From NCBI GenBank assembly GCA_029063275.1, contig JAIDOO010000093.1, forward strand, positions 1 to 12,125: a stretch of 12,125 nt of DNA, in the 5' to 3' direction. This document shows positions 768 to 12,125 of this stretch, one piece after another. The stretch comes from Clostridia bacterium. Lineage in GTDB: Bacteria > Bacillota > Clostridia > Christensenellales > Borkfalkiaceae. Each line of letters opens with the position of its first letter. The first letter of the stretch is position 1. The notes under the pieces are model-generated. The model had not been told where the DNA came from. It did not search any database and saw nothing but the letters and a program-made list of their open reading frames with translations. Position numbers and translations under genes: made by a program.

Positions 768-796
768 TTGAATTTTATGGTTTTATATTGTATAAT
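768..796 (+). promoter_or_regulatory. Sigma-A-type promoter of the DAC-like gene pair
   Basis: A -35 box TTGAAT (768-773) and a perfect -10 box TATAAT (791-796) are separated by exactly 17 bases, placing the transcription start about 20-25 bases before the ATG at 825. The overlapping TTGACT at 763-768 would be too far from TATAAT. The leader is short, and the only ribosome-binding match is a weak GGA at 815-817. No convincing promoter was found on the other strand for the divergent pentapeptide gene. Confidence 0.7.
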
Positions 797-824: not shown

Positions 825-1895
825 ATGGACAACCTTTCATTTAGTTCGCAAAGCAGAAAATTGCGTAGATTTTTTAAAATTCATAATATCAAGTTGCCAA
901 CCGATTTTTATAACGAATTGCTTGAGTTTATTTCCTCGGCTTGTATCTATGAAGAGGAAGGGCGAAAAATCAGACCGAGTTTAATTGTAGGCAACAATCT
1001 TTTGGATAAACATTTGTCTATGATATTGCAGGCGAATGTATTATGTTTCAGTAAGGAAAAAATCAAAAAAACGCATTTAAAAAAGAGATTAAAATCATTA
1101 ATTCCTTTTTGCGAAAACGGGTGGAGAATATTTATAAATTTTGATTCGAAGGATGTCAGTTACGGAATAATCAGAAACTTTAATGGTCCGACAGGTTTAA
1201 ATTTTGATGATCTTTTATCCGGCTTATCTGCGGAAGAAGTTCAATCTTTTGATCTCAATTATATTTTGGTAGACGTATTAAATAACTTCGAGCTAATGTT
1301 AAAAGGTAATGCAGGTACTTTTAAAATCGATTTTAAATTGTGTAAACCGGATTCTTACAGCCAAAACTTTTTAGATTGTTTTTGCGACGATATTATTTCC
1401 GCCGTTGAGTCGGATAAGAGAAAACTGAAAGTCGCATTTATGAAGATAATAAACCTGTTTTCGCAAAAGCTTCACGGCAGTATCTGTTTGGTTATCGATA
1501 ACGAATACGAATTACCCGATGACGTGCTTAAAGACGGAGTTTTTCTTCCTGAACCGATAGATATATGCGCTGTGTTAACCGATGAATTAAACGAAACCAA
1601 TAATAAAGACGTATCGGGAATTGTTTCTGTTTACGAAAAGTATTATGCTTTTACCGGTATATTGTTGGAAATGCTTAATTTTGATGGCATCACGATAATA
1701 GATAATAAAGGACGTTTAAGAGCTTACAACGTATTTGTTAATTCCGACATAAATTCAAACAACGCTTTATCCGGCGGCGCACGGAAAAGGGCCGCAGAAT
1801 TTTTATGTAATCAGCAAAATCCAAATTATTTGGGGGTATACTTTCAGTCGCAAGACGGCTTGTGTTCTTATAAGAGGGTAAACAATAATGAGTAA
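825..1895 (+). CDS. Protein with a C-terminal diadenylate-cyclase-like (DAC/DisA_N) domain
   Basis: This 356-residue protein has no signal peptide or obvious membrane segment. Residues about 205-350 follow the layout of the DAC domain of DisA and CdaA. GSICLVIDNE (218-227) sits where DACs have a GAIIVIG-type strand, KDG (236-238) where they have an IIDGG-type turn, FDGITIIDNKGR (286-297) at the DGA motif, and SGGARKRAA (316-324) at the GTRHRAA motif, followed by a strand (335-340) and a short QDG turn. True DACs make c-di-AMP from two ATP using the DGA Asp and the RHR motif. Here these read DGI and RKR, so activity is uncertain; related DAC-derived domains have been proposed as nucleotide sensors in conflict systems. 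Residues 1-200 are unrecognised; EEEGRKIRPSLIVG (43-56) stands out. The stop codon lies inside the next gene, so the two are probably translated together. The DAC-like fold is a motif-level inference. Confidence 0.78.
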   Translation: MDNLSFSSQSRKLRRFFKIHNIKLPTDFYNELLEFISSACIYEEEGRKIRPSLIVGNNLLDKHLSMILQANVLCFSKEKIKKTHLKKRLKSLIPFCENGWRIFINFDSKDVSYGIIRNFNGPTGLNFDDLLSGLSAEEVQSFDLNYILVDVLNNFELMLKGNAGTFKIDFKLCKPDSYSQNFLDCFCDDIISAVESDKRKLKVAFMKIINLFSQKLHGSICLVIDNEYELPDDVLKDGVFLPEPIDICAVLTDELNETNNKDVSGIVSVYEKYYAFTGILLEMLNFDGITIIDNKGRLRAYNVFVNSDINSNNALSGGARKRAAEFLCNQQNPNYLGVYFQSQDGLCSYKRVNNNE

Positions 1896-3180
1896 TGAGA
1901 TAATTTTATATTCCGCTTCGACAGGTATTCAGATTTCGCAGAGATGTTGCGATGTATCTTCTTTAATGGAGTACAATAAATTGCTTAAGCCGAGTGAGGC
2001 GGAAAAAGTAATAAAAGCAGTCGACGGACAATTATACGATATGGCGGCGGAATATTTGTGGAGCCGCACGATTAATATTTTAAAAAAAGATATTTTTAAG
2101 TTTGGCAATGAATTCGTCGCAGAGATGCTGGATAGACCGAACGGTGATATAGATACGATTTCAGAGTATGAAATTATTACGTTATCGGCTGATTTGGGAT
2201 TCATTAACAGTACGGCAAAAATGGAGTTTTTGCAATTCAGCGAAACCATACAACATTTTATGTCGTTAGAGGAAGACGAAGAAGAATTTCCCGTTACAAG
2301 ACTTATCGATATGGTTCGTTCTTGTATTAAATATGTTTTAGGATATGATTCGATAGAATACGAAGTGCCTTTCGGTTCTTTCAGGGACAGACTTAAAAGT
2401 GAAATCGTTAATTCCGGCAGTGATATTTACGAACAGTTAAAGACTTCGCCTTATTTTTATAAAAAGACGATTACAAAGACCCTATTGAATTTGGCTAAGA
2501 CATTGCAAGAGGGCGCCGAAAGAGAAGTAGTATTAGCCAATTTGAGTTTTATTGTTCCGGGTATATGGCAGGATTTGTCGTCCGAGGACCGTTGGGCAAT
2601 CGGTCGCGCATACGCGCAAGCAAATAACGACGGAGATGAAAATTTATCAAAGGCGTTGAAATCTTTACTGATAAAAATCAAAGGTTTCGACTATGTGCCT
2701 GAAAATCTTCGTTCCAACTCATATATTACTGCGGCAAAAGATTTATTGACGACTCATCAAGGAATGAATAATTTTTACCGTGAACCGTCGTATGCGAAAG
2801 TTTTGTGCGATATGGGCTCGTCGATTCCTATGCCTGCATTTAGCATTTGTATGACGGCAACTTTGGCATGTAAACTGGGAAACGGTTATGGCGTGTCGGA
2901 AAATGCACAGCAGTATCTTGATAAGATTTTGGATCGCGTGTCCCCCGAAAGGTGGAGATATTATCTTGGTAACGATATTTCGAAAGATTCCACAATCCTT
3001 TATAAATTATGTTACCAAAAAGACACGCTTGAGAATTTTAAAGATATTGTAGATAAATATAAATTATATGATATACGATTCACGACTGAGGAAATTACAA
3101 AGGTAATGCAGGCGCTTGCCGGCAATAAGCTTAGTACGGCAAGGAAAATTTTTATCGATATGTATGATAAACTCAATTAA
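1888..3180 (+). CDS. Unrecognised helical protein, partner of the DAC-like protein
   Basis: This 430-residue protein starts with an ATG that overlaps the upstream gene by 8 bases, with an AGAGGG stretch (1873-1878) nine bases upstream as a ribosome binding site. I do not recognise the family. It is soluble-looking and largely helical, with an acidic patch LEEDEEEF (127-134) separating an N-terminal part from a longer C-terminal part. Two stretches look like conserved cores: WSRTINILKKDIFKFGNEFV (58-77) and the region 295-365, which holds NFYREP, GSSIPMPAF, ACKLGNGYGVS and RWRYYLGN. There is no visible nuclease, Walker or protease motif. Tight coupling to a DAC-like gene suggests the two products act together, as sensor and effector or as a complex, but that is inferred from gene order only. 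The codon pattern and AT-richness match the upstream gene. No clear terminator follows it. Confidence 0.88.
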   Translation: MSNEIILYSASTGIQISQRCCDVSSLMEYNKLLKPSEAEKVIKAVDGQLYDMAAEYLWSRTINILKKDIFKFGNEFVAEMLDRPNGDIDTISEYEIITLSADLGFINSTAKMEFLQFSETIQHFMSLEEDEEEFPVTRLIDMVRSCIKYVLGYDSIEYEVPFGSFRDRLKSEIVNSGSDIYEQLKTSPYFYKKTITKTLLNLAKTLQEGAEREVVLANLSFIVPGIWQDLSSEDRWAIGRAYAQANNDGDENLSKALKSLLIKIKGFDYVPENLRSNSYITAAKDLLTTHQGMNNFYREPSYAKVLCDMGSSIPMPAFSICMTATLACKLGNGYGVSENAQQYLDKILDRVSPERWRYYLGNDISKDSTILYKLCYQKDTLENFKDIVDKYKLYDIRFTTEEITKVMQALAGNKLSTARKIFIDMYDKLN

Positions 3181-3316: not shown

Positions 3317-3718
3317 ATGAGACTTGATGGAATTGGGTTATTTGTAAAAGATATGGCAACGATGATACGTTTTTATCGAGACGTATTAGGTTTTGAAATT
3401 CAAGAAGGCGAAGACTCCGTCAACGTTTATTTGATAAAAGACGGCACGTTGTTTATGCTTTACGAAAGAAACAAGTTTGAAAGTATGACGAGCCGAAAGT
3501 ATGAATATATTAAGGGGCTAAACGGACATTTCGAAATAGCGTTGTATGTGGACACTTTTGAAGAAGTTGATAAGCGTTTTGCCGATGTCGTAAGTAAGGG
3601 AGCAACTCCCGTACTTGAACCCACAACTGAACCGTGGGGACAAAGAACGTGTTACATTGCCGACCCCGAAGGTAACCTTATCGAAATCGGCTCTTTCAAT
3701 AAACCGTTTAAAAGATAA
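3317..3718 (+). CDS. VOC-family (glyoxalase/bleomycin-resistance fold) protein
   Basis: At 133 residues this is a standard two-module vicinal-oxygen-chelate protein. Module 1 (about 1-55) has MRLDGIGLFVKDMATMIRFYRDVLGF-type sequence, where the Phe-Tyr and LGF positions are typical. Module 2 (about 70-127) has HFEIALYVDTFEEVDKRF, KGATPVLEP, and the closing DPEGNLIEI. Candidate metal ligands are H71 and E123. The usual first-strand His is absent (LDGIGLFV), so metal binding cannot be assumed. The substrate is unknown; members include glyoxalase I, dioxygenases, antibiotic-binding proteins and many small uncharacterised enzymes. The ATG has only a weak GGAAAA upstream. It lies 136 bases after the DAC-linked gene with no obvious promoter, and its base composition is intermediate. 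Family assignment is firm, function is not. Confidence 0.9.
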   Translation: MRLDGIGLFVKDMATMIRFYRDVLGFEIQEGEDSVNVYLIKDGTLFMLYERNKFESMTSRKYEYIKGLNGHFEIALYVDTFEEVDKRFADVVSKGATPVLEPTTEPWGQRTCYIADPEGNLIEIGSFNKPFKR

Positions 3719-3782: not shown

Positions 3783-4003
3783 CTGTCATCGCTTGAATGT
3801 ACAACCTTTTTTTAATTACCTGTGGTAAGCGCTTTTTGCCGTTCGCTTTTTTAATTGAAGAAATGCCGATTATCGTTGCAAAATAAATTAGATTGTGTTA
3901 CACTTTTAAGGTGCTTTTCGAAAATTAAATAATCTTATTAGACGGTTTGAATATTTTATTTAAGTAACGGCAACAATTAAAAAAAATAATCTGGAGGCGG
4001 CAA
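3783..4003 (+). other. Gene-free stretch before cvpA
   Basis: This is AT-rich spacer with runs of T (around 3805 and 3846) and no open frame with coding character. It contains the cvpA promoter and, at its end, a strong GGAGG ribosome binding site (3993-3997). No tRNA or recognised structured RNA was seen. Confidence 0.6.
3876..3904 (+). promoter_or_regulatory. Sigma-A-type promoter of cvpA
   Basis: A -35 box TTGCAA (3876-3881) and a -10 box TACACT (3899-3904) are 17 bases apart. The predicted start near 3911 leaves a leader of about 90 bases before the GTG at 4004. Confidence 0.6.
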
Positions 4004-4585
4004 GTGATTCTTGCGGATTGGATTGCGATAGCGGTAGTTGCCGCGTTTATACTTTTGGGAGCGCTGGTTGGCTTTGGCAAAGGTATTAAATTTTTTACCG
4101 GCGGAGTTTTCGGCATTATAATTTCGATTTTTGTCTGTTACCTTATAGGCGGAATGGTTTTAAAAATACCGTTCGTTCAGGACATATTGGGAAAATTCAT
4201 AGACGCCCTTACCGACAAAAACAAATTCTGCGACTTCCTTTTGAAAATCCATATCGAAATCGTAGTTTACTATCTTGTGCTGTTTATAGTGGTTTCGGCG
4301 CTCCGCGTTCTGATTGTGTTTCTTTTAAAGCGCTTTGTGGAAATAGACAGACCCGTATTTAAGTTGATTAACAGATTATTGGGAATACTGTTTTTTCTCA
4401 TAATCCTGGTATTGCTGACTTTCCTTGTTTTCCAGATAATTTACTGGATAGGCGGTTCGGCTTACACCGATTTCAAACAGCATTTGACGGGTAGCTTCTT
4501 CAAGTTGGATAAGTTGCTTGACGCCAATCCGCTGGCTTCCCTTCCCGACTGGTTCAGAGAGAATTTCGTGCACGAAGTATCATAA
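4004..4585 (+). CDS. CvpA-family integral membrane protein
   Basis: This 193-residue protein has four hydrophobic segments, at about residues 4-24, 31-53, 84-108 and 122-149. The N-terminal DWIAIAVVAAFILLGALVGF with the following GKGIKFFTGG fits the CvpA (colicin V production protein) family, where an Asp near the start and Gly-rich turns between the first two helices recur. The C-terminal 45 residues are polar and end in a soluble tail. CvpA proteins are inner-membrane proteins linked to colicin V export and envelope homeostasis, with no settled molecular function. The GTG start was chosen because GGAGG (3993-3997) lies 6 bases upstream. The gene has its own promoter and a short gap before the PRC-barrel gene. 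Topology is clearly seen; family assignment is by general resemblance and is moderately sure. Confidence 0.82.
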   Translation: MILADWIAIAVVAAFILLGALVGFGKGIKFFTGGVFGIIISIFVCYLIGGMVLKIPFVQDILGKFIDALTDKNKFCDFLLKIHIEIVVYYLVLFIVVSALRVLIVFLLKRFVEIDRPVFKLINRLLGILFFLIILVLLTFLVFQIIYWIGGSAYTDFKQHLTGSFFKLDKLLDANPLASLPDWFRENFVHEVS

Positions 4586-4595
4586 AATTAAAATT

Positions 4596-4626
4596 TGCGG
4601 CAGGCTTAATTTCAAGGCTTGCCGCA
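4596..4626 (+). other. Hairpin between cvpA and the PRC-barrel gene
   Basis: Arms TGCGGCAGGCT (4596-4606) and GGCTTGCCGCA (4616-4626) pair over 11 positions including two G-U wobbles. The element starts 11 bases after the cvpA stop and ends 12 bases before the next ATG. It lacks a T-run, so it may be an mRNA-processing or translation-modulating structure rather than a terminator. Confidence 0.45.
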
Positions 4627-4637
4627 TATATTATTAT

Positions 4638-4967
4638 ATGGACTTTTTGTATTCCGAAATCAAACAAAAGGAAGTTATAGGTTTAAACGACGGAAGGCAC
4701 CTGGGAAAGGTGTGCGACCTGTCTTTTTCGTTCCCCGAAAATAATATTCTGGGTTTTTACGTAACGGGCTGTAAGGGCTTTAAGTTTAACCGCCAAAACG
4801 AATTTATTCCCATTAAAAACGTGGTTAAAATAGGAGAGGATGCAATACTCGTTAAGTTTGAAAACAAGCCCGACTGCCCGCCGCCTAAAAACCGTCCGCC
4901 CAAAAATTGTCCGCCGCCCTGTCCGCCTAATCCGTGCGACAGGCGCAGTTACGACGAATACGAATAA
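4638..4967 (+). CDS. YlmC/YmxH-family PRC-barrel protein with a Pro/Cys-rich tail
   Basis: This 109-residue protein begins MDFLYSEIKQKEVIGLNDGR, followed by HLGKVCDLSFS, and has FIPIKNVVKIGEDAILVKF at 56-74. This is the pattern of the short PRC-barrel proteins annotated as the YlmC/YmxH sporulation family in Bacilli and Clostridia (first strand with S-ELxxKEVI, then GxxLGxVxDL, then IPWxxIxxIGxDxI). The barrel ends near residue 77. The remaining 32 residues are an unusual tail of repeated PP or PPP with four cysteines (C80, C91, C95, C100), ending in acidic DEYE. The frame is open further upstream, but the ATG at 4638 gives the normal family N-terminus and avoids overlap with cvpA. No clear Shine-Dalgarno precedes it. 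In spore formers this family is expressed around sporulation with unclear function. Confidence 0.87.
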   Translation: MDFLYSEIKQKEVIGLNDGRHLGKVCDLSFSFPENNILGFYVTGCKGFKFNRQNEFIPIKNVVKIGEDAILVKFENKPDCPPPKNRPPKNCPPPCPPNPCDRRSYDEYE

Positions 4968-4973
4968 AATTTT

Positions 4974-5009
4974 GTCCGCCGCGCAAAGTCTTGCGCGGCG
5001 GACGTTTTT
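4974..5009 (+). terminator. Bidirectional intrinsic terminator between convergent genes
   Basis: Perfect 13-base arms GTCCGCCGCGCAA (4974-4986) and TTGCGCGGCGGAC (4991-5003) enclose a 4-base loop and are followed by GTTTTT on the plus strand. On the minus strand the same stem is followed by AAAATTTTATT. It sits between the PRC-barrel stop and the convergent DUF4363 stop, so it probably serves both transcripts. Confidence 0.92.
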
Positions 5010-5010
5010 A

Positions 5011-5388
5011 TCAGAATATATTTTCAAGTCTTACGGCGTACGAGCCGGGCAATGCGTCGGCAATTTCTTTGAGAACTTCTAATTTGCTCAGCGCCGCCTC
5101 ATAGTCGCCTGTATATATAAGTCCGCAGGTTTCGTTCAGCCAGTAATCGACGTACGAAATATCGTTGTGCGGAACGAAGACGTGGAGTTTGCTTTTTTTG
5201 TCCAGCCACATTTCTTTTACGGCATAGCCGTCCTCGCGGTTGGCGGTTTCGTTTTCTACCTTTTTATAAAGAGTATTTACCGCACTGCTGAACTCGTCAA
5301 ACTGCTTGTCTACGTATAGCTCCACGCAAACAAACAGCACTACGCATAAAACTATCGCGGTAAGCGTGTAAATCACCGATTTTACCAT
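5011..5388 (-). CDS. DUF4363-family single-span membrane protein
   Basis: This 125-residue protein has one N-terminal transmembrane helix (about residues 5-23, SVIYTLTAIVLCVVLFVCV) and a soluble helical remainder. The WLDKKSKLHVFVPHNDI stretch, then NETCGLIYTGDYEAALSKLEVLKEIADALP, fits the DUF4363 family, whose genes are regularly found directly behind DUF421 genes in Clostridia. Here its ATG overlaps the 3' end of the DUF421 gene by 7 bases, so translation is likely coupled, and GGGGA lies directly against the start. The two products probably work together at the membrane, facing the outside for most of this protein; that location is inferred from a short positive N-terminus. The biochemical role is unknown. 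Confidence 0.82.
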   Translation of the reverse strand: MVKSVIYTLTAIVLCVVLFVCVELYVDKQFDEFSSAVNTLYKKVENETANREDGYAVKEMWLDKKSKLHVFVPHNDISYVDYWLNETCGLIYTGDYEAALSKLEVLKEIADALPGSYAVRLENIF

Positions 5389-6056
5389 TCCCCGTTCACC
5401 TCTAATTTTAAAATCTTGTACTTCTCGCCTTTCTTCTGAAAATACGCCCTGCCTTCGGAATTAACGGTCAATACCACAACCTGTTTGGGTTTTGCGTTCT
5501 GTTCCTTTAAAAGACCGTCAAGCCGTTCGCGTTCGATACCCGCCTTTTTAAGGTTTTTGGTATCAACCGTTCCGCTCTCTATCAAAGTGAGAGATAGGGT
5601 AGAGGTGGACTTGTCGGGATTTTCAAGCGCGGAAAAGCTGCCGTTCGCCTCGTATAAGCCGTAATAGACGTCGTCAAGAGCAAAGTATCCTGCGGTGCGC
5701 ATACTTTCGATAAGGTCGCTTACGTCCAGATTGTTCTTTCTGAGCTCGCGCTCGACAATGCCGTTGCGGTTGATGACTATCGACGGCGTGCCGCACACTA
5801 CCTTTTTCATAGGCTTAAACCACAAATCCAAAAGCCATACAATCTGGTGCAGAATAAATATGGCGACAATTGCGATAATGCCGTATAAAAGCGGTATAGA
5901 GGTGTCAGCCATAGGAATACACGCAAGCTCGGCGATAACGAGAGTAATTACAAATTCAAAGGGCTGCATTTCGCCTATCTGGCTTTTGCCCATAAGACGC
6001 ATTATAAAAAGAAGGGTAATAAAAATAACCGTCGTGCGGATAAATATAAGAGCCAT
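5382..6056 (-). CDS. DUF421 (YetF-like) membrane protein
   Basis: This 224-residue protein shows the diagnostic DUF421 block: IMRLMGKSQIGEMQPFEF (18-35), VITLVIAELACIPM (36-49), then hydrophobic segments at about 2-20, 33-50 and 56-78. The soluble C-terminal half has GTPSIVINRNG (89-99), LRKNNLDVSDLIESMRTAGY (105-124), DDVYYGLYEANGSFS (128-142), and a terminal RAYFQKKGEKYKILKLEV part. DUF421 proteins are common in spore formers, where relatives are linked to spore or germination membranes and resistance, but the molecular activity is unsettled. The ATG at 6056 matches the family N-terminus, yet no Shine-Dalgarno is visible upstream. It forms an overlapping pair with DUF4363 and is divergent from the folate operon. 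Family assignment is firm. Confidence 0.94.
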   Translation of the reverse strand: MALIFIRTTVIFITLLFIMRLMGKSQIGEMQPFEFVITLVIAELACIPMADTSIPLLYGIIAIVAIFILHQIVWLLDLWFKPMKKVVCGTPSIVINRNGIVERELRKNNLDVSDLIESMRTAGYFALDDVYYGLYEANGSFSALENPDKSTSTLSLTLIESGTVDTKNLKKAGIERERLDGLLKEQNAKPKQVVVLTVNSEGRAYFQKKGEKYKILKLEVNGEW

Positions 6057-6090
6057 AATATAAGTATTTTCAAAATGAGGCTTTATATTC

Positions 6091-6119
6091 TTGATTTGGT
6101 TCGGCGGCAGTGGTATAAT
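6091..6119 (+). promoter_or_regulatory. folC: Candidate sigma-A-type promoter of the folate operon
   Basis: A TTGATT -35 box (6091-6096) and a perfect TATAAT -10 box (6114-6119) are exactly 17 bases apart. Transcription would begin near 6126, giving a structured leader of about 105 bases before the folC ATG. That start would remove the left strand of the possible P2 stem of the tetrahydrofolate riboswitch candidate, so either this promoter or that stem model needs adjusting. Confidence 0.65.
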
Positions 6120-6120
6120 A

Positions 6121-6190
6121 TAAGCGTAAGTATCGGCGGTTGGACGTCCGCCGGACGAAAGGCTTTTGCCTGCGGTTTAGGTACGCGTCC
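6121..6190 (+). promoter_or_regulatory. Candidate tetrahydrofolate (THF class I) riboswitch in the folC leader
   Basis: The leader reproduces the core order of the THF-I riboswitch. TAAGT (6127-6131) is followed by a P3 stem CGGCGG/CCGCCG (6134-6139 with 6148-6153) with a GGACG-containing loop. Then comes ACGAA (6155-6159), a small hairpin AGGC/GCCT (6160-6171), and GCGGT (6172-6176). The loop GGACG (6142-6146) can form a pseudoknot with CGTCC (6186-6190), as in the known fold. P2 could be TAA-GCG (6121-6126) with TGC and TTA (6171-6173, 6177-6179) around a GGT bulge, the same bulge I recall in the Streptococcus mutans RNA. P1 is not evident. Position directly before folC-folP-folBK supports the call. 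Alternative: an unrelated structured leader, where GCGTA/TACGC (6124-6128 with 6182-6186) is the main stem. Confidence 0.5.
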
Positions 6191-6210
6191 TTAAAATATA
6201 TTTTTTTTCG

Positions 6211-6232
6211 GGCGCCACAGGGCGTTTTTTTT
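6211..6232 (+). terminator. Possible attenuator hairpin with T8 directly before the folC start
   Basis: GGCGCC (6211-6216) can pair with GGCGTT (6221-6226), two pairs being G-U, around an ACAG loop. The right arm runs into eight T residues that end exactly at the ATG. This resembles a weak intrinsic terminator and could be the expression platform of the upstream riboswitch candidate. It could equally hide the only Shine-Dalgarno-like AGGG (6219-6222). Stem stability is modest. Confidence 0.4.
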
Positions 6233-7375
6233 ATGGAAGAAATTTTTGAAAAACTGAACGGTATGCGCCAAAGCGGTTTTAACTTCGGCACGGATAGAAC
6301 ACGCACCGTTTTGGACAGGCTGAATAGCCCCGACAAAAAACTTAAAATAATTCATATCGCAGGCACCAACGGCAAGGGCTCGACTGCGGAATATTTAACT
6401 GATATACTCATAGCCGCAGGAAAAAAGACGGGCACTTTTACTTCGCCCGAGGTTTATAGCTATTTCGAGCAGTTCCGCATTAATGCAAAGCCCGTGCCCG
6501 CAGACGTTTTAGCCGACTGCTTTTCAAGAGCTTTTAACGCGGCTTCAAATCTTGGCGCAACTCCGTTTGAAATAGAAACAGCAGGCGCGCTTACGGCATT
6601 TGCGGAAAGCGGATGTGAATACGCCGTTATAGAGTGCGGGTTGGGCGGACTTACCGACGCGACCAACGCGATTGCAAAAAAGGAGGTTGCGGTAATAACC
6701 TCTATTTCCTTGGAGCATACCGCATATCTCGGCGGAACGATTGAAAAAATATGTGAACAAAAAGCGGGAATAATAAAAAACTGCCCTGCGGTTGTGAGCT
6801 CGCTTCAACCCGTTGAAGCGGAAGAGTACTTTAAAAAACTCGGCGCAGTGAAAGCGCCGCCCTGCGCATACAAGCTGAAAATGCAGGGCTCCGCCCAGCC
6901 TTATAACGCGGGCGCGGCGGCAACCGCCGCCGAAATTCTGGGCATTGACGCAAAGTTTATAAAATCGGGTATAGAAAATACCGTGCTTTCAGGCAGGCTT
7001 GAGGTTATCAAAACCGACAAAACCTATATTCTTGACGGCGCACACAATCCGCAGAGCTTTGAAAATCTGAAATCCTTTCTTGAAAAATACGACCGCGCAA
7101 AAAACACCGTAATATTCGGCTGTCTTTCCGATAAGGACGCGGGGCGGTGCTTAGACGCAATAAGAGATTGCGCGGACCGCATAATCGCCGTAACGCCTGA
7201 TTCTTACAGGGCGATGGACGGGGATAAAATTTTCAGCCTGTGCAAAAATTACTTCAAAAACGCAACGCGGGCGGACGGAATTTGCTCCGCGCTTGAACAG
7301 ACGGAGAGCGAAACCGTTACGGTCTGCGGTTCGTTTACGCTTTTAAAAGAAGCGAAGGATTGGATTTTAAAATGA
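6233..7375 (+). CDS. folC: FolC, dihydrofolate synthase / folylpolyglutamate synthase
   Basis: FolC ligates glutamate to dihydropteroate and extends folate glutamate tails using ATP. This 380-residue copy shows the Mur-ligase-like P-loop GTNGKGS (44-50), TSPE (70-73) where TSPHL is usual, ECGLGGLTDATN (134-145) for the usual EVGLGGRLDATN, SLEHTAYLGGT (159-169), EQKAGIIK (175-182) with the lysine that is carbamylated in studied FolC, GRLEV (254-258) and ILDGAHNP (266-273). It is shorter than the usual 420 or so residues, chiefly because the stretch between AGIIK and GRLEV is condensed. The ATG at 6233 gives the natural start (EEIFEKLNG); an in-frame TTG at 6140 lies inside the leader structure and was rejected. 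No strong Shine-Dalgarno is visible. The stop overlaps the folP start as ATGA. Confidence 0.94.
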   Translation: MEEIFEKLNGMRQSGFNFGTDRTRTVLDRLNSPDKKLKIIHIAGTNGKGSTAEYLTDILIAAGKKTGTFTSPEVYSYFEQFRINAKPVPADVLADCFSRAFNAASNLGATPFEIETAGALTAFAESGCEYAVIECGLGGLTDATNAIAKKEVAVITSISLEHTAYLGGTIEKICEQKAGIIKNCPAVVSSLQPVEAEEYFKKLGAVKAPPCAYKLKMQGSAQPYNAGAAATAAEILGIDAKFIKSGIENTVLSGRLEVIKTDKTYILDGAHNPQSFENLKSFLEKYDRAKNTVIFGCLSDKDAGRCLDAIRDCADRIIAVTPDSYRAMDGDKIFSLCKNYFKNATRADGICSALEQTESETVTVCGSFTLLKEAKDWILK

Positions 7376-8154
7376 TTATATCGGATAAAAAATTTGAAAA
7401 TTACACCTACGTAATGGCGATTATAAACCTGACCCCCGACTCGTTTTTCAAGGACAGCCGAAAGGATGAGTACACTGTTTTGAAGGCGGTTGAAAAGGCG
7501 GTTAAGGATGGCGCGGCGTTGATAGACGTAGGAGCGCAGTCCACACGCCCCGGTTATACCGAAGTAAGCGCGGACGAGGAAATTGCCCGCTTCGGGCGTC
7601 CGCTGAGGCTTATTAAAGAAAATTTCGAAATTCCCGTTTCGGTGGATACTTATTTTGCAAAGAGCGCAGAAGCCGCGCTCGATATAGGCGCGGATATGAT
7701 AAACGACGTATGGGGACTGTCGCACGACAGGGAAATGGCAAAGATAATCGCAAAACATAACGCGTCGGTGTGCATTATGCACAATGCAAAAAATACGCTG
7801 TCGGGCGATATATGGAAGCCTATAAATTCTTTTTTAAAGGAGCAGGCGGAGTTTGCGGTTTCAAACGGAATTGCAAAGGATAAAATCTGTCTTGACGGCG
7901 GGATAGGCTTTGCCAAAACCAAAGAGCAGAACTCGGAGCTTTTAAACGGCTATCACCGCCTTTCCGCACTTGGCTATCCTCTTCTTTTGGGAACGAGCAG
8001 AAAATCTTTATTCGGCGGCGAAATACAGGACAGGCTTGCGCCGACGGTTGAAAGCACCCGTCTTGCGGCGAGGAACAAAATTCTTTTCGTGCGCGTTCAC
8101 GACGTAAAGGAAAACGCGCAGGCAATCAAAGAATGTTACGAACAAAACAATTAA
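7372..8154 (+). CDS. folP: FolP, dihydropteroate synthase
   Basis: FolP joins hydroxymethyldihydropterin diphosphate and p-aminobenzoate to dihydropteroate; it is the sulfonamide target. The 260 residues form a TIM-barrel enzyme with all family motifs: NLTPDSF (19-25), DVGAQSTRPG (52-61), SVDTY (90-94), INDVWG (110-115), MHN (136-138), LDGGIGFAKT (174-183), GTSRKS (207-212) and RVHDV (241-245). Changes from the common forms include AQ for GE in the second motif and LDGG for LDPG in the pterin-loop region. The ATG at 7372 overlaps the folC stop (ATGA), with AAGGA 12 bases upstream, so translation is probably coupled. An in-frame TTG at 7360 was not chosen. The length is at the short end for the family. 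Confidence 0.95.
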   Translation: MIISDKKFENYTYVMAIINLTPDSFFKDSRKDEYTVLKAVEKAVKDGAALIDVGAQSTRPGYTEVSADEEIARFGRPLRLIKENFEIPVSVDTYFAKSAEAALDIGADMINDVWGLSHDREMAKIIAKHNASVCIMHNAKNTLSGDIWKPINSFLKEQAEFAVSNGIAKDKICLDGGIGFAKTKEQNSELLNGYHRLSALGYPLLLGTSRKSLFGGEIQDRLAPTVESTRLAARNKILFVRVHDVKENAQAIKECYEQNN

Positions 8155-8185
8155 TACGGAAAAAGCTTTAAATTTCCGTGAAGGC

Positions 8186-8191
8186 AGGAGG
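8186..8191 (+). promoter_or_regulatory. Strong Shine-Dalgarno of the folB/folK gene
   Basis: AGGAGG stands only 3 bases before the ATG at 8195, with no other start close by. It is a full match but at an unusually short spacing. Confidence 0.7.
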
Positions 8192-8194
8192 AAT

Positions 8195-8983
8195 ATGAAC
8201 GTAATACAAATCAGGGGGCTTGAATTTTCAGCCTGCCACGGCGTGAACCCCGACGAAAAAACCGCTCCCCAGAAATTTGTGATAGACGCGGATATAAAAA
8301 CCGATTTTTACGCCGCCGCAAAAAACGACGATATCGGCGGTACGGTCAATTATGCAAAAGCCTGCAAGGCAATTGCCGCTACCGTTCAGGACAATGTTTT
8401 CAATCTGATAGAAAAGCTTGCCTACGAGTGCGCGTTTGCGGTATTGGAAAATTTCAAAAGGGCGGAGGCGGTAACCGTTACCGTAAAAAAACCCGAAGCC
8501 CCTATGAGCAAAAAATTCGATTACGTTGCGGCTTGCGTAGCGCTTGAAAGAAACACCGCGTATCTGTCGCTCGGTTCGAGTATGGGCGATAAAAAAGCGT
8601 ATCTTGACAAAGCGGTAGCTCTTTTGGATAAAGTGCGCGGAGTAAAGGTTGAAAAGGTTTCTTCATACTTGCCGACAAAGCCCTACGGCGGTGCGGCTGA
8701 AAACGAATTTTTAAATTGCGCCGTAAAAATTTCAACTTTTCTTGCGCCCGAAAACCTGTTGTCTGAAATCCACGAAATAGAAAAACAGTGCGAACGCGTC
8801 CGCACCGTCCGCTGGGGCGACAGGACGCTTGATATCGACATAATATTTTTCGGCGACAAAATACTGCGCGGGCAAAACCTGACAATTCCCCATGCAGACT
8901 ATAAAAACCGCGATTTTGTTTTAACTCCCTTAAAGGAAATTGCAGAGGGCTTTATCTGCCCCGATACGGGCAAGCCGTTATGA
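8195..8983 (+). CDS. folK: FolB-FolK fusion: dihydroneopterin aldolase and HPPK
   Basis: This one 262-residue chain covers two consecutive steps. Residues 1-118 are dihydroneopterin aldolase (FolB), which cleaves dihydroneopterin to 6-hydroxymethyldihydropterin: GLEFSACHGVNPDEK (8-22), TVNYAK (50-55), IEKLAYECA (72-80) and VTVKKPEAPM (95-104, with the catalytic lysine region). Residues 120-262 are 6-hydroxymethyldihydropterin pyrophosphokinase (FolK): AYLSLGSSMGDKKAYL (122-137), the substrate-loop TKPYGG (161-166), the Mg-binding RWGDRTLDIDIIFFGD (206-221), and IPH with R239 (231-239). Fused FolB-FolK chains are known in several Bacillota. The gene follows folP after 40 bases and has its own AGGAGG site. 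The product feeds FolP directly. Nothing is missing from either domain. Confidence 0.95.
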   Translation: MNVIQIRGLEFSACHGVNPDEKTAPQKFVIDADIKTDFYAAAKNDDIGGTVNYAKACKAIAATVQDNVFNLIEKLAYECAFAVLENFKRAEAVTVTVKKPEAPMSKKFDYVAACVALERNTAYLSLGSSMGDKKAYLDKAVALLDKVRGVKVEKVSSYLPTKPYGGAAENEFLNCAVKISTFLAPENLLSEIHEIEKQCERVRTVRWGDRTLDIDIIFFGDKILRGQNLTIPHADYKNRDFVLTPLKEIAEGFICPDTGKPL

Positions 8984-9002
8984 CTTTTTCGGTTAAATAT
9001 GG

Positions 9003-9029
9003 TTTGTGCAGTATGCACAAATATTTTTA
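9003..9029 (+). terminator. Palindrome TTTGTGCA-gta-TGCACAAA with AT-rich tail after folB/folK
   Basis: Perfect 8-base arms (9003-9010 and 9014-9021) enclose three bases, starting 20 bases after the folB/folK stop, followed by TATTTTT. It may be a weak terminator of the folate operon, or, given its symmetry, a binding site for a dimeric repressor acting on the promoter candidate at 9037-9065. Confidence 0.4.
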
Positions 9030-9036
9030 AGAAATA

Positions 9037-9065
9037 TGTACAAACTGCAAAAATTATGATACACT
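9037..9065 (+). promoter_or_regulatory. Weak promoter candidate upstream of ppx
   Basis: TGTACA (9037-9042, four of six matches to TTGACA) and TACACT (9060-9065) are separated by 17 bases. The -10 is the same hexamer used before cvpA. A transcript from here would meet the hairpin with a T-run at 9092-9129 within about 55 bases. Confidence 0.35.
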
Positions 9066-9091
9066 TGTCCTATTAAGTAATTTAAACGGCG

Positions 9092-9129
9092 GCAACACAA
9101 AAGCCCGCATAGGGCTTTGTTGCTTTTTT
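9092..9129 (+). terminator. Intrinsic terminator upstream of ppx
   Basis: AAAGCCC (9100-9106) and GGGCTTT (9112-9118) pair around a 5-base loop; GCAAC (9092-9096) and GTTGC (9119-9123) extend the stem across a 3-base bulge. Six T residues (9124-9129) follow. It probably stops folate-operon transcription before ppx, and could attenuate any transcript starting at 9065-9075. Confidence 0.78.
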
Positions 9130-9232
9130 CGCACGCGCACCGCTTGCAATACGTTCGGTATTGTGATGCCGCCTCTTAATTTACGGATATTACGCAAACC
9201 ACAAATGCGAAAACGCGTGTCAGGAGATTAAT
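9130..9232 (+). other. Leader of ppx with a 9-base hairpin
   Basis: TTGCAATAC (9144-9152) pairs with GTATTGTGA (9158-9166), two pairs being G-U, and is directly followed by TGCCGCC (9167-9173), complementary to GGCGGCA at 9088-9094. AGGAG (9222-9226) is the ppx ribosome binding site. No coding frame is seen here. Confidence 0.45.
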
Positions 9233-10747
9233 TTGGAAAAGATAGGAATTATAGATTTAGGCTCTAACTCGGCAAGGCTCGTTATAGTAAACCTGTTTGC
9301 CGAAGGCTATTTTATGGTAGTGGACGAATTGAAAGAGAGCGTCCGCTTAGGGCAGGATATGGAGCGCGACGGCTTTTTGAAGCCCCAGCGCGTAGCCGAA
9401 ACGATTAAGACGTTAAAAATGTTCCGCCGTCTTTGCGACGCGAGCGGAGTTTCGCGCATTATCGCGGTTGCTACTGCGGCTGTGCGCCGCGCTAAAAACC
9501 AGCGCAGCTTTCTGGACGAAATTCAGGCGAGTTGCGGAATTAAAATCCGCGTTCTCACCGCCGAGGAAGAGGCGGTTTACGTTTACCGAGGCGTGATAAA
9601 CACTATGGACGTGCCCAAGGGACTTATTCTCGAAATCGGCGGCGGCTCGACCAAAGTGGTTTACTACAACAGAAGAAATATTTTAAATTACGCCACTATG
9701 CCCTTCGGCGCGGTTACTTTGACCGGTCTTTTTGCCGACGACGGCTTAAAGCCAGAACAGCAGGCGAAGAAGATAGAAGAGTTCTTCCGCGAGGAGCTTA
9801 AAAAGATAGAGTGGATAAACGAGGTTGACCCCGACGTTCAGATGATAGGCGTAGGCGGCTCGTTCAGAAATCTTTTCAAGATAAACAAAATCGTCCATAA
9901 ATATCCGCTCGACACCGTTCACAACTATTGCATGAGCGTTGAGGACTTCGACGCCGTTTACGATACGTTAAAGGTTTTGGACCTTGACAAAAAGAAGAAG
10001 ATAAAGGGTCTTTCGGCGGAGCGTGCGGACATTCTTCCCGCCGCGCTTGCGATAGTCAAGTCGTTTATTTCGTACTTCAATTTCGATAAATTCGTTATGT
10101 CCGGCGCGGGGCTCAGAGAGGGCATTATGTTCAACCAAGCCCTTCCCATAACCGAAGAAAAGCCTATTTCGGACGTGTTGAATTACTCGCTTACCACTTT
10201 GGTGAAGTATTACGACTGCGACGAAAAGCACGTCGAACACGTTGTTAATTTAAGTATACAGCTTTTCAAACAGCTCAGAGTACTTCATAAATTCCCCAGA
10301 CAGTATTTAAGAATTTTAAAGGTTGCGGCAACTCTGCACGACTGCGGAATGAAGATAAAGTACTACAATCACCAGCGCCACAGCTGTTATATGATTTTAA
10401 ACTCAAACCTTTACGGGCTTGCCCACAGGGATATAATCCTTGCGGCGTTTACCGCCTGCTGCCATAAAAAAGAGGACATCAATCTCTACGAATGGGCAAG
10501 ATACAAGGACCTTTTGGGCGAGGACGATATCGAAATCGTCAAGCGCCTCGGCGTGATTTTACGCATAGCCGAAAGTCTTGACAGGTCTATGTCGGGCTCG
10601 GTTAAATCGATAAACTGCGACATTCTCGGCGATTCGGTTATAATGAAAACCGAAGTCGAGGGAGAAGCAACTCTGGAAATCCGCGACGCAATGGCGGCAA
10701 GCGCGGAATTCAGAAAATCTTTCCGTAAAAATCTTGAAATTTTATAA
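9233..10747 (+). CDS. ppx: Ppx/GppA exopolyphosphatase-type phosphatase with C-terminal HD domain
   Basis: The enzyme family hydrolyses polyphosphate ends or pppGpp. This 504-residue protein has an N-terminal ASKHA-fold domain (about 1-300) with IDLGSNSARL (7-16), AVATAAVRRAKN (78-89), the catalytic-glutamate region TAEEEA (109-114), EIGGGST (134-140), GVGGS (206-210), SAERADILPAAL (261-272) and GAGLREGI (291-298). The C-terminal part (about 310-504) is an HD-type helical domain with LHDCG (368-372), HQRHS (380-384) and CCHKK (409-413). Exopolyphosphatase versus pppGpp phosphatase cannot be decided from sequence; two-domain length favours Ppx/GppA of the longer type. The start is TTG at 9233 with AGGAG 6 bases upstream, and the first motif begins at once. 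It has its own leader and lies upstream of maf and the mreB-like gene. Confidence 0.92.
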   Translation: MEKIGIIDLGSNSARLVIVNLFAEGYFMVVDELKESVRLGQDMERDGFLKPQRVAETIKTLKMFRRLCDASGVSRIIAVATAAVRRAKNQRSFLDEIQASCGIKIRVLTAEEEAVYVYRGVINTMDVPKGLILEIGGGSTKVVYYNRRNILNYATMPFGAVTLTGLFADDGLKPEQQAKKIEEFFREELKKIEWINEVDPDVQMIGVGGSFRNLFKINKIVHKYPLDTVHNYCMSVEDFDAVYDTLKVLDLDKKKKIKGLSAERADILPAALAIVKSFISYFNFDKFVMSGAGLREGIMFNQALPITEEKPISDVLNYSLTTLVKYYDCDEKHVEHVVNLSIQLFKQLRVLHKFPRQYLRILKVAATLHDCGMKIKYYNHQRHSCYMILNSNLYGLAHRDIILAAFTACCHKKEDINLYEWARYKDLLGEDDIEIVKRLGVILRIAESLDRSMSGSVKSINCDILGDSVIMKTEVEGEATLEIRDAMAASAEFRKSFRKNLEIL

Positions 10748-10749
10748 TT

Positions 10750-10778
10750 GTAATGCCGCTGAAAATACGCGGCATTAC
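10750..10778 (+). repeat. First inverted repeat between ppx and maf
   Basis: Perfect 10-base arms GTAATGCCGC (10750-10759) and GCGGCATTAC (10769-10778) flank a 9-base loop, three bases after the ppx stop. No T-run follows. Its right arm shares four bases with the next, longer inverted repeat, so only one of the two can form fully. Confidence 0.6.
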
Positions 10779-10826
10779 GTGTAGTTAACCCAAAAAAGTG
10801 CATCTTTTGAGGTTAACTACACGTAA
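10775..10826 (+). repeat. Second, long inverted repeat just before maf
   Basis: Perfect 16-base arms TTACGTGTAGTTAACC (10775-10790) and GGTTAACTACACGTAA (10811-10826) enclose 20 bases in which CAAAA (10791-10795) and TTTTG (10805-10809) extend the stem. It ends 9 bases before the maf ATG and has no T-run after it. Possible roles are an mRNA structure controlling maf translation, a processing site, or a small repeat element. Confidence 0.7.
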
Positions 10827-10835
10827 CTGTTTACT

Positions 10836-11387
10836 ATGAAATACATTCTGGCAAGCGCCTCGCCGCGTAGAAGGGAACTTTTATCGCAGGTATTAAATAA
10901 TTTCGAGGTCGTTCCCGCTAAGGCGGAAGAAAAAGTCAATCTTGCAATGTTTCCCGAAAAAATGGCTTGCGCCCTTGCCGAACACAAGTGCGACGAGGTG
11001 TTTAATGACCATACGGATTCAACCGTTATCGGGTGCGACACCGTGGTCTATTTCGAGGGCGAAATTTTAGGCAAGCCCAAAAACAGGTCGGACGCCGCGG
11101 CAACGCTGAAAAGGCTGTCCGGCAAAACTCACTACGTCATTACGGGCGTGTGCGTAAGAAACAAGTATAAAAAACTCATTGACTTCGACAAAACCGAAGT
11201 AAAATTCAACGTCCTTTCGGACGAATTTATTAAAATTTACACTGACGGCGGCTCGCCGCTGGATAAGGCGGGCAGTTACGGAATACAGGACGGCGGCATA
11301 GTAAAGGAATGCTTCGGCAGTTATACAAACGTGGTGGGACTGCCCGTAACGCTGGTAAGAAAAATGATTAACGAGGTACGCGAATGA
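10836..11387 (+). CDS. maf: Maf-family nucleoside triphosphate pyrophosphatase
   Basis: Maf proteins hydrolyse dTTP, UTP or modified NTPs to monophosphates, preventing their incorporation into nucleic acid. At 183 residues the protein has the usual size and motifs: SASPRR (7-12), GCDTVV (66-71), LGKP (78-81), SGKTHYVITGV (95-105), DKAGSYGIQ (143-151) and NVVGLP (165-170). This matches the YhdE/Maf dTTP/UTP branch better than the 7-methyl-GTP (YceF) branch, though subgroup assignment by eye is tentative. The ATG at 10836 gives the family N-terminus MKYILASASPRR, but no Shine-Dalgarno is visible; a long hairpin lies directly upstream. The stop overlaps the mreB-like start as ATGA, repeating the maf-mreB neighbourhood known from Bacillus subtilis. 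Confidence 0.95.
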   Translation: MKYILASASPRRRELLSQVLNNFEVVPAKAEEKVNLAMFPEKMACALAEHKCDEVFNDHTDSTVIGCDTVVYFEGEILGKPKNRSDAAATLKRLSGKTHYVITGVCVRNKYKKLIDFDKTEVKFNVLSDEFIKIYTDGGSPLDKAGSYGIQDGGIVKECFGSYTNVVGLPVTLVRKMINEVRE

Positions 11388-12125
11388 AAAGACTTGCAAT
11401 AGATATGGGTTCTAGCATAACCAAAATTTATATGCCCGGCTGCGGAGTGGTGCTTATGGAAGCGACCTGTATCGCGGTTGAAGAAATGATTGACAACGGT
11501 CAGAAAATTGTAAACATAAAGGCGCTCGGCGACAAGGCACGCGCACTTTCCGGCAGGTCGGCTGTCAACACCCATATAGTAAATCCCGTCGTAGAGGGCG
11601 ATATAGTAAACGAAACCCTGGCGGCGTGCCTTTTGGAATATTTTTTAAACAAGGTTGAAATAAGCAGGAGACAGGCAAAGCGCACGGAGGTTATGTTTAT
11701 TCTGCCCTGCGGCTGTAAACCTGCGTTAAAGGAAAAGTATCAGCGCATTGCGGACGCGTGCGGAATTTGTATGTCGTACTTCACCCTCAACCCTTTCGCG
11801 GCGGTGTTGGGTCAGAACGTGGCTATTAACGAAAGCACTCCTATGTTTTTAATCGATATAGGTTGCGGCATAACCAATATCGCGGCGCTCTCGCAGGACG
11901 GCATTATTTCGGGTATAAACGTAAATCTGGGCGGCGGCAATATCGACGTGCATCTTATCGATATGCTTGCCGACAAGTACAATATAAAGATCGGCGCGCT
12001 CACCGCCGAAAGATTGAAAAACACAGTCGGCAGTCTTTTGGACGACGACAACAAAATGACGGTGGTCGACGGCAGGGATGTCGAAACGGGCGCACCCGCA
12101 TCGGTTGCGATAAATTCTTCGCAGG
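11384..12125 (+). CDS. mreB: MreB-like actin-fold protein, C-terminus cut by the window edge
   Basis: 247 codons are present of an expected 330-345. MreB forms membrane-bound filaments guiding cell-wall synthesis. The phosphate-1 loop IDMGSSITKIYM (6-17) stands for the usual IDLGTANTLVY, and NPVVEGDIVNE (67-77) for RPMKDGVIADF. FILPCGC (105-111) stands for the ICVPSG-type strand, LIDIGCGITNIAALSQDGI (156-174) for the IDIGGGTTEIAVISLGGI motif, and IKIGALTAERLKNTVGS (201-217) for the IGERTAEEIKIEIGS block. GRDVETGAP (230-238) matches GRDLVTGLP. The order of motifs is fully MreB-like, but several highly conserved nucleotide-contact residues differ (IGCGIT in place of IGGGTT). It may therefore be a second, divergent paralogue (Mbl/MreBH-like) rather than the main MreB. 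ATGA overlap with maf supports coupled translation; mreC/mreD would be expected next. Confidence 0.83.
   Translation, partial: MKRLAIDMGSSITKIYMPGCGVVLMEATCIAVEEMIDNGQKIVNIKALGDKARALSGRSAVNTHIVNPVVEGDIVNETLAACLLEYFLNKVEISRRQAKRTEVMFILPCGCKPALKEKYQRIADACGICMSYFTLNPFAAVLGQNVAINESTPMFLIDIGCGITNIAALSQDGIISGINVNLGGGNIDVHLIDMLADKYNIKIGALTAERLKNTVGSLLDDDNKMTVVDGRDVETGAPASVAINSSQ

Follow-up and report, generated by a model that had tools for sequence, protein, structure and literature searches.

A candidate mobile conflict module that couples a diadenylate-cyclase-fold protein to a putatively HEPN-derived helical partner

Diadenylate cyclases (DACs) are textbook housekeeping enzymes. According to the available text of a 2026 paper (PMC13092281), DS-2, a set of phospholipase, cGAS and DAC genes brought forward by DefensePredictor, is a validated phage defence system in which the predicted catalytic residues of the DAC are needed for defence; 15 of 30 homologues of the DS-2 DAC lie beside CBASS, an earlier note of a CBASS-DAC association is cited, and DS-2 is stated to contain the first DAC validated in phage defence. 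A DAC in phage defence is thus already known from DS-2. The second close comparison is Panoptes (optSE), a two-gene cyclase-effector operon whose products, in the available part of PMC12657218, include 2',3'-c-di-AMP. Here we analysed a 12,125-nucleotide stretch of a Clostridia bacterium genome (henceforth referred to as the ‘window’) that contains two adjoining genes, ORF1 and ORF2, the first of which encodes a DAC-fold protein.

Like DS-2 as described in its available text, the family of this pair includes a DAC-type protein in the vicinity of CBASS, at a plasmid-borne pair in Agrobacterium, although the DACs are compared by description only. In contrast to DS-2, which has three genes and no ORF2-like partner in that text, the window lacks CBASS, and no phospholipase or cGAS match was found in ORF1, ORF2 or the two flanking genes. 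With Panoptes the pair shares a two-gene operon in which a partner accompanies a nucleotide cyclase, but OptS is described as an mCpol (Cas10-type) protein and OptE as a transmembrane effector, whereas ORF1 has a DAC fold rather than that of an mCpol-type OptS and its partner is all-helical. Nor does the pair itself constitute CBASS, which has a CD-NTase cyclase with a Cap effector, since neither gene had a PADLOC or Pfam match, and the CBASS of the Agrobacterium locus is a separate neighbour. We found no description, in the open-licence literature as far as it was available, of a DAC with a HEPN-derived solenoid partner, of caspase or phosphoesterase fusions of that partner, or of the core copies detailed below; PMC13092281 cites a 2023 article in which Galperin treats DAC architectures and which may cover some of these proteins.

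Both genes lie on the + strand, as do all features of the pair given below. From the ORF calls, the relatives and AF2 models, ORF1 (825..1895) encodes 356 amino acids with an N-terminal alpha/beta domain and a C-terminal divergent DAC domain, and ORF2 (1888..3180) encodes an all-helical protein of 430 amino acids that has a putatively HEPN-derived N-terminal part and an alpha-solenoid-like part. The genes overlap by 8 nt, and a Shine-Dalgarno-like AAGAGGG (1872..1878) can be read in the end of ORF1, 9 nt upstream of the ORF2 start. In a scored set of 81 loci with an ORF1-like gene (80 from genome contigs plus the window), the two genes overlap in all 22 loci that hold both, and for 19 of these the overlap measures 4 or 8 nt; in the Agrobacterium pair, which is outside this set, they are 1 nt apart. 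The preliminary description had a good promoter driving two overlapping, coupled genes. The overlap and the coupling are borne out; a sigma-70-like match upstream of ORF1 (TTGAAT-17-TATAAT, 768..796, 10 of 12 consensus positions) is also present, but promoter-like sites in the region number 13 against 12.4 in shuffled sequence, that is, chance level in number. At E<=1e-3 we recovered 317 relatives of ORF1 and 451 of ORF2, which indicates that both are real genes. The closest listed relatives, own entries aside, are 83% (ORF1) and 87% (ORF2) identical, and among the 120 listed for each the identity floor is 29% and 43%, respectively.

The AF2 model of ORF1 (pLDDT 88.9), together with a fold search, shows a DAC fold over residues 178-354 (1356..1886), which agrees with the DAC-like domain earlier proposed for residues 205-350. 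Sequence alone links ORF1 to DACs weakly: window ORF1 had no match to PF02457 at E<=1, and so did not reach the curated cut-off, although PF02457 matched 18 of 41 aligned ORF1 sequences (the window and 40 of 120 listed relatives, 317 having been found) at E<=0.1; hhalign of this alignment against nine canonical DACs gave an E-value of 0.002 and a probability of 14%. The DAC assignment therefore rests on the fold. A PDB sequence search found nothing with the ORF1 alignment (E<=1) or the ORF2 alignment (E<=5), and Foldseek returned no hits at 1e-3 for either model. The domain ahead of the DAC (residues 1-175, 825..1349) is without a clear fold match, in line with the unknown domain of the preliminary description, and is conserved, with Y42, E44, E45, P51, K90, W100 and G114 invariant in the 41 sequences.

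Intact DGA, GTRHR and SEE/SQRR motifs are absent from ORF1, which has DGI, GARKR and SQDG instead. Profile alignment sets D287-G288-I289 (1683..1691) on DGA, and D287 and G288 are invariant in the 41 sequences. The counterpart of GxRHR is GGARKR (317-322, 1773..1790), in which R320 and R322 are invariant and K321 nearly so; among the 120 listed ORF1 sequences, 119 read GARKR (104), GARRR (12), GSRKR (2) or GARTR (1) at this site. SQDG (342-345, 1848..1859) corresponds to SEE or SQRR and has S342 and G345 invariant. Compared with DisA, CdaA and CdaS (PF02457), ORF1 thus has the same fold, the Asp-Gly of DGA, both Arg of RHR and the Ser of SEE; it differs in DGI, GARKR and SQD, in its own N-terminal domain, in having ORF2 as operon partner and in lacking a PF02457 match. 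The substrate-site Asp, both Arg and the Ser (with roles as given in the available part of PMC7288161) are kept across ten very divergent pairs, including those of Vibrio and Agrobacterium, with a Glu-to-Asp exchange.

Because the Thr and His of GTRHR are replaced by Ala and Lys (or Arg, Thr, Ser), enzyme activity of ORF1 is uncertain. We considered whether ORF1 could be a DAC without catalysis that responds to the level of a nucleotide and exerts allosteric control over ORF2. The same replacements (Thr to Ala; His to Lys, Arg, Thr or Ser) would fit such a protein, and a mycobacterial DAC in which RHR is changed to AAA neither binds ATP nor is active (PMC3328451, available text). However, the DGA Asp, the two Arg and the Ser do not vary among the 10 divergent pair members, which speaks against it, and the position of the His is basic in most sequences, as would suit altered catalysis no less than binding; we regard a dead enzyme as quite unlikely. 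The reading we prefer retains ORF1 as a nucleotide-handling enzyme that would form the output of the pair, with ORF2 as its sensor or gate.

The AF2 model of ORF2 (pLDDT 85.7, pTM 0.67) consists of helices throughout save two one-residue strand or bridge positions, confirming the helical nature previously noted for the second protein. In the model, residues 158-413 (2359..3126) take an alpha-solenoid shape, and the HEAT/ARM matches to it are of shape and not of family membership. Pfam rows for COX_ARM and HSM3_N among the window gene products were sub-threshold and were dropped. Residues ~30-150 (1975..2337) form a HEPN-like region without an RN...H motif, assigned through homology to solo proteins: hhalign aligned ORF2 (by an alignment of 37 of its 120 listed relatives, 451 having been found) at 100% and E 1.1e-40 with solo proteins in which R176 and H183 are invariant. 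This R...H pair is present in 10 of 10 solo ORF2 homologues, and the Rx4-6H HEPN motif ([MLIV]R[NH]x4-6H) in 0 of 120 listed ORF2-type sequences. The solo homologues also have weak matches to Abi_C (PF14355), HEPN_RiboL-PSP, DUF4145 and Dandelion-HEPN; as for a HEPN fold, a Dandelion-HEPN chain matched at E 0.11, HEPN-type Pfam rows were weak, and the whole-model fold search was dominated by the solenoid. The proposed HEPN ancestry, drawn from one motif and weak hits, is therefore putative. The solo proteins thus resemble HEPN RNases and Abi_C in the R...H pair and these family matches, whereas the paired ORF2 lacks the motif and has a solenoid-like part.

A further element, NNFYREP (2767..2787), is common to solo and caspase-fused relatives in the alignment, and N[FY][YH]xEP occurs in 116 of the 120 listed sequences of the paired type and in 84 of the 87 of the long fusion type. 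Among the 120 listed relatives the ORF2 module is fused to a PF00656 caspase in 84 and to a PF00149 phosphoesterase in 3, as checked again for 5 caspase and 3 PF00149 proteins; the 87 long fusion-type relatives keep AGHG in 82 cases and DACxSG in 81. Caspase-family proteins of Clostridia (for example P0315, annotated ‘caspase family protein’, from Clostridioides difficile) share the ORF2 module as their C-terminal ~430 residues, but their output is a fused peptidase C14, whereas here it would be a separate DAC. A caspase fusion on a viral contig has an ORF2 module 36% identical to window ORF2.

These forms of ORF2 bear on two other explanations of the pair. According to the first, a nucleotide guard with Panoptes-like logic, the product of ORF1 would constantly silence a toxic ORF2, and removal of the nucleotide by phage would free it. 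The tight coupling of the two genes, with no separate sensor gene, accords with this, as does the two-gene cyclase-effector operon of Panoptes, which works in this way in the available text of PMC12657218. Yet the HEPN motif is lost from ORF2-type sequences (0 of 120 listed), so that toxicity of ORF2 is only hypothetical, and the caspase and phosphoesterase fusions put the effector outside the ORF2 core, and we consider a guard unlikely. According to the second, the pair would be an addiction module in which ORF1 is the antitoxin to a toxic ORF2, as could be suggested by the way the genes overlap or abut when carried by plasmids or phage-like contigs and by the intact HEPN-type motif of solo relatives. 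We consider this very improbable: their large size and good conservation set both proteins apart from most antitoxins, and solo and fused ORF2 forms occur with no ORF1 match in the available DNA.

The pair is patchily distributed. Of 101 genomes from the window's family, 1 was found to have the gene, namely the genome that the window comes from, and a search of the taxonomic class with the ORF2 alignment had hits in 4 of 341 genomes, three of the 4 solo-type. For Paenibacillus filicis, a search of its taxonomic class with alignment A3 found 5 of 398 genomes, and an ORF2-alignment search of its family 3 of 104, two of the 3 partial. Mobile-type pairs (henceforth referred to as ‘class A’) occur in Desulfosporosinus, Geobacter, Syntrophomonas, Paenibacillus and Lachnospiraceae records. 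Within three genes, and the pair aside, no neighbour family is common to the six scored loci of class A (the window locus being represented by 3.4 kb); together with the sparse occurrence, such varied neighbours are as expected of a mobile defence module. Class A pairs were also found on IMG/VR contigs, one with a terminase gene (L099), one of the same layout (L100) and one with AimR. Among 50,697 phage records, none matched window ORF2 at 1e-5. On a Vibrio plasmid the pair lies 1.9 kb from a BsuBI/PstI R-M system, and on the Agrobacterium plasmid it adjoins a CBASS cyclase and phospholipase. Both plasmid pairs are remote from that of the window, which counts against the conflict-module reading: Vibrio ORF1 is 29% identical to window ORF1, and Agrobacterium ORF1, more remote still, was not recovered by the same search and is 24.5% identical to Vibrio ORF1. 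The preliminary description raised the question of whether the pair travels in defence islands. In favour of a defence setting are defence-type neighbours at two pair loci (Vibrio and Agrobacterium, such loci being few and hand-picked) the caspase or phosphoesterase fusions of the partner, and the occurrence on phage-like contigs, on plasmids and at varied chromosomal sites; against it, neither gene matched anything in PADLOC, and no known defence gene lies beside the window pair among the four gene products searched (the pair and two flanks). Overall, we hold a mobile conflict role, taken by itself, to be likely.

At the window locus the pair is flanked by a pentapeptide-repeat gene (2-688, - strand, GC 0.25), whose presence the preliminary description had reported correctly, and by a glyoxalase-family gene (3317-3718). 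None of the neighbours at the five remaining class A loci belongs to the family of the former. Further along (4001-12125) the GC content rises up to 0.46, and the ORFs read, from translations only, as folate-synthesis, Ppx/GppA, Maf and MreB genes, which suggests that the pair sits at the edge of the core chromosome. Elsewhere in class A, one locus (L019) has within three genes a neighbour from the acyl-ACP-thioesterase-type family that is recurrent beside class B genes (see below), and on the Vibrio plasmid a third gene, of 204 amino acids and with no family match found, has a one-base overlap with the end of the pair (L104:3225-3839).

For 59 of the 81 scored loci (‘class B’), the available DNA shows no ORF2 match along with the ORF1-like gene; 6 of these have less than 1.3 kb after ORF1, and 53 remain when they are set aside. 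The surroundings are recurrent, as 54 of 59 class B loci have a neighbour family common to at least three other class B loci. By names taken from one Pfam-searched member per family, these include a pheT-type gene (10 loci) or a Ham1-type gene (6) before ORF1, and an acyl-ACP-thioesterase-type gene (15) or a ~2700-aa gene named by length only (18) after it. At the pheT-type loci (L008, L012, L013, L014, L020, L021, L023, L027, L043 and L081) a pheS-type gene lies upstream in 8 of 10, the hosts are MAGs of Clostridia and other Bacillota, and the ORF1-like gene appears core-like with a DAC-like signature. A further 16 loci (‘class C’) hold a pair with a divergent ORF2, with recurrent neighbours in 13, among them a PRK-type kinase (12 loci) and a SepF-type protein (7). 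Since 59 of 81 ORF1-like genes show no ORF2 in the available DNA and mostly lie in recurrent neighbourhoods, ORF1 can apparently work without a ‘gate’, which weighs against the sensor-output reading. In a tree of 85 ORF1 sequences, from which L100 was left out, 10 class A rows stand apart from 75 class B and C rows with a support of 99/100. Long branches among the class A rows are joined at some forks and we therefore use only this split; as the tree is rooted at the midpoint only, it does not establish the direction of change between mobile and core forms. Class C falls in two places of the tree, which fits loss of ORF2 in class B. The idea of a stable pair, with homologues apart in fixed core loci as the finding that would count against it, fares unevenly: the pair is found repeatedly on phage-like DNA, on plasmids and at differing places in chromosomes, but most ORF1-like genes stand at recurrent sites with no ORF2 seen in the available DNA, and the 16 class C pairs mostly keep their neighbourhood too; these 75 loci branch apart from the mobile pairs.

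We considered whether ORF1 could be an alternative housekeeping c-di-AMP synthase, of which the mobile pair would be a spare copy. A genome test took in 50 of the 80 loci from genome contigs, 31 of them class B, 14 class C and 5 class A; canonical DAC (PF02457) was present in 5 of 5 class A and 0 of 45 class B or C genomes. In the order of one of the latter, 135 of 151 genomes have a canonical DAC, which would favour replacement, although that order was not matched for genome size (the class B and C genomes span 0.8-1.8 Mb) and 13 of its 151 genomes lack both the DAC and a match to the ORF1 alignment; there were three such matches in the order, two of them (G559 and G611) weak and partial. However, the same 45 genomes, mostly MAGs by record title with completeness unstated, have no match to the receptor CdAMP_rec (PF06153), no match to the RF00379 riboswitch under stricter filters and no GdpP over the cut-off; a GdpP row in one of them (G476) is below the cut-off and has stops inside. 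Positive controls in the 5 class A genomes are thin, with the receptor in 1, the riboswitch in 3 and GdpP over the cut-off in 2. In view of these limits a Fisher test was disregarded. Against a housekeeping synthase stand this failure to find a classical network and the canonical DACs of the tested class A genomes and of the window genome, which has one elsewhere, and we regard it as highly unlikely; core forms as replacement c-di-AMP synthases were set aside on the same findings. Since receptor and riboswitch were not matched, nor GdpP over the cut-off, the core form probably does not serve the classical c-di-AMP network, and may instead descend from a mobile pair that was domesticated to handle a different nucleotide or to fill a different role.

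Returning to the sensor-output reading, we infer that ORF2 would be the constant part, in which a HEPN-derived, catalytically degenerate domain and an alpha-solenoid-like part recognise an infection cue and gate the output. ORF1, as a DAC-fold enzyme, would act on ATP or a related nucleotide once ORF2 releases or activates it. Among the relatives, the output under the control of this ORF2 core would be a caspase or a calcineurin-like phosphoesterase fused to it, or else an RNase site within the core itself. This whole chain, a mobile two-gene conflict module, most likely anti-phage, with ORF2 sensing or gating and ORF1 as nucleotide-handling output, has in our view a slightly less than even chance of being right. 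We advance as a doubtful extension that a defence family is built on one HEPN-derived solenoid sensor with swapped outputs (DAC-type enzyme, caspase, phosphoesterase or own RNase), that the product of its DAC version is a nucleotide different from c-di-AMP, and that domestication turned this version into a core gene of those small-genome Clostridia that have lost classical c-di-AMP signalling. If true, this would be a second DAC-type module, one that occurs without CBASS, and with the caspases and phosphoesterases of the partner's relatives it would link several outputs to one sensor, the trigger of which could then be tested directly. In genomes where a search for four classical c-di-AMP components found none over the cut-off, the lone core copies raise the question of which nucleotide a DAC-like fold makes there.

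Other ORF2-type relatives have varied surroundings. The caspase fusion on the viral contig (694 amino acids, L102:6015-11275) lies directly downstream of a 1045-aa SIR2-pAgo protein, with two serine recombinases before the region and a GajB-like helicase after it. One solo homologue with the HEPN motif is near a HamB-like (Hachiman) helicase (L121:4501-9311), and another adjoins a 471-aa gene with weak matches to SIR2-pAgo-associated N-terminal domains (L119:7449-10256). On a 14-kb Acinetobacter schindleri plasmid, a solo homologue with RNxxxxxH (L107:5800-7200) lies between a recombinase and a toxin gene pair of HTH/PemK type, with macrolide-resistance genes nearby.
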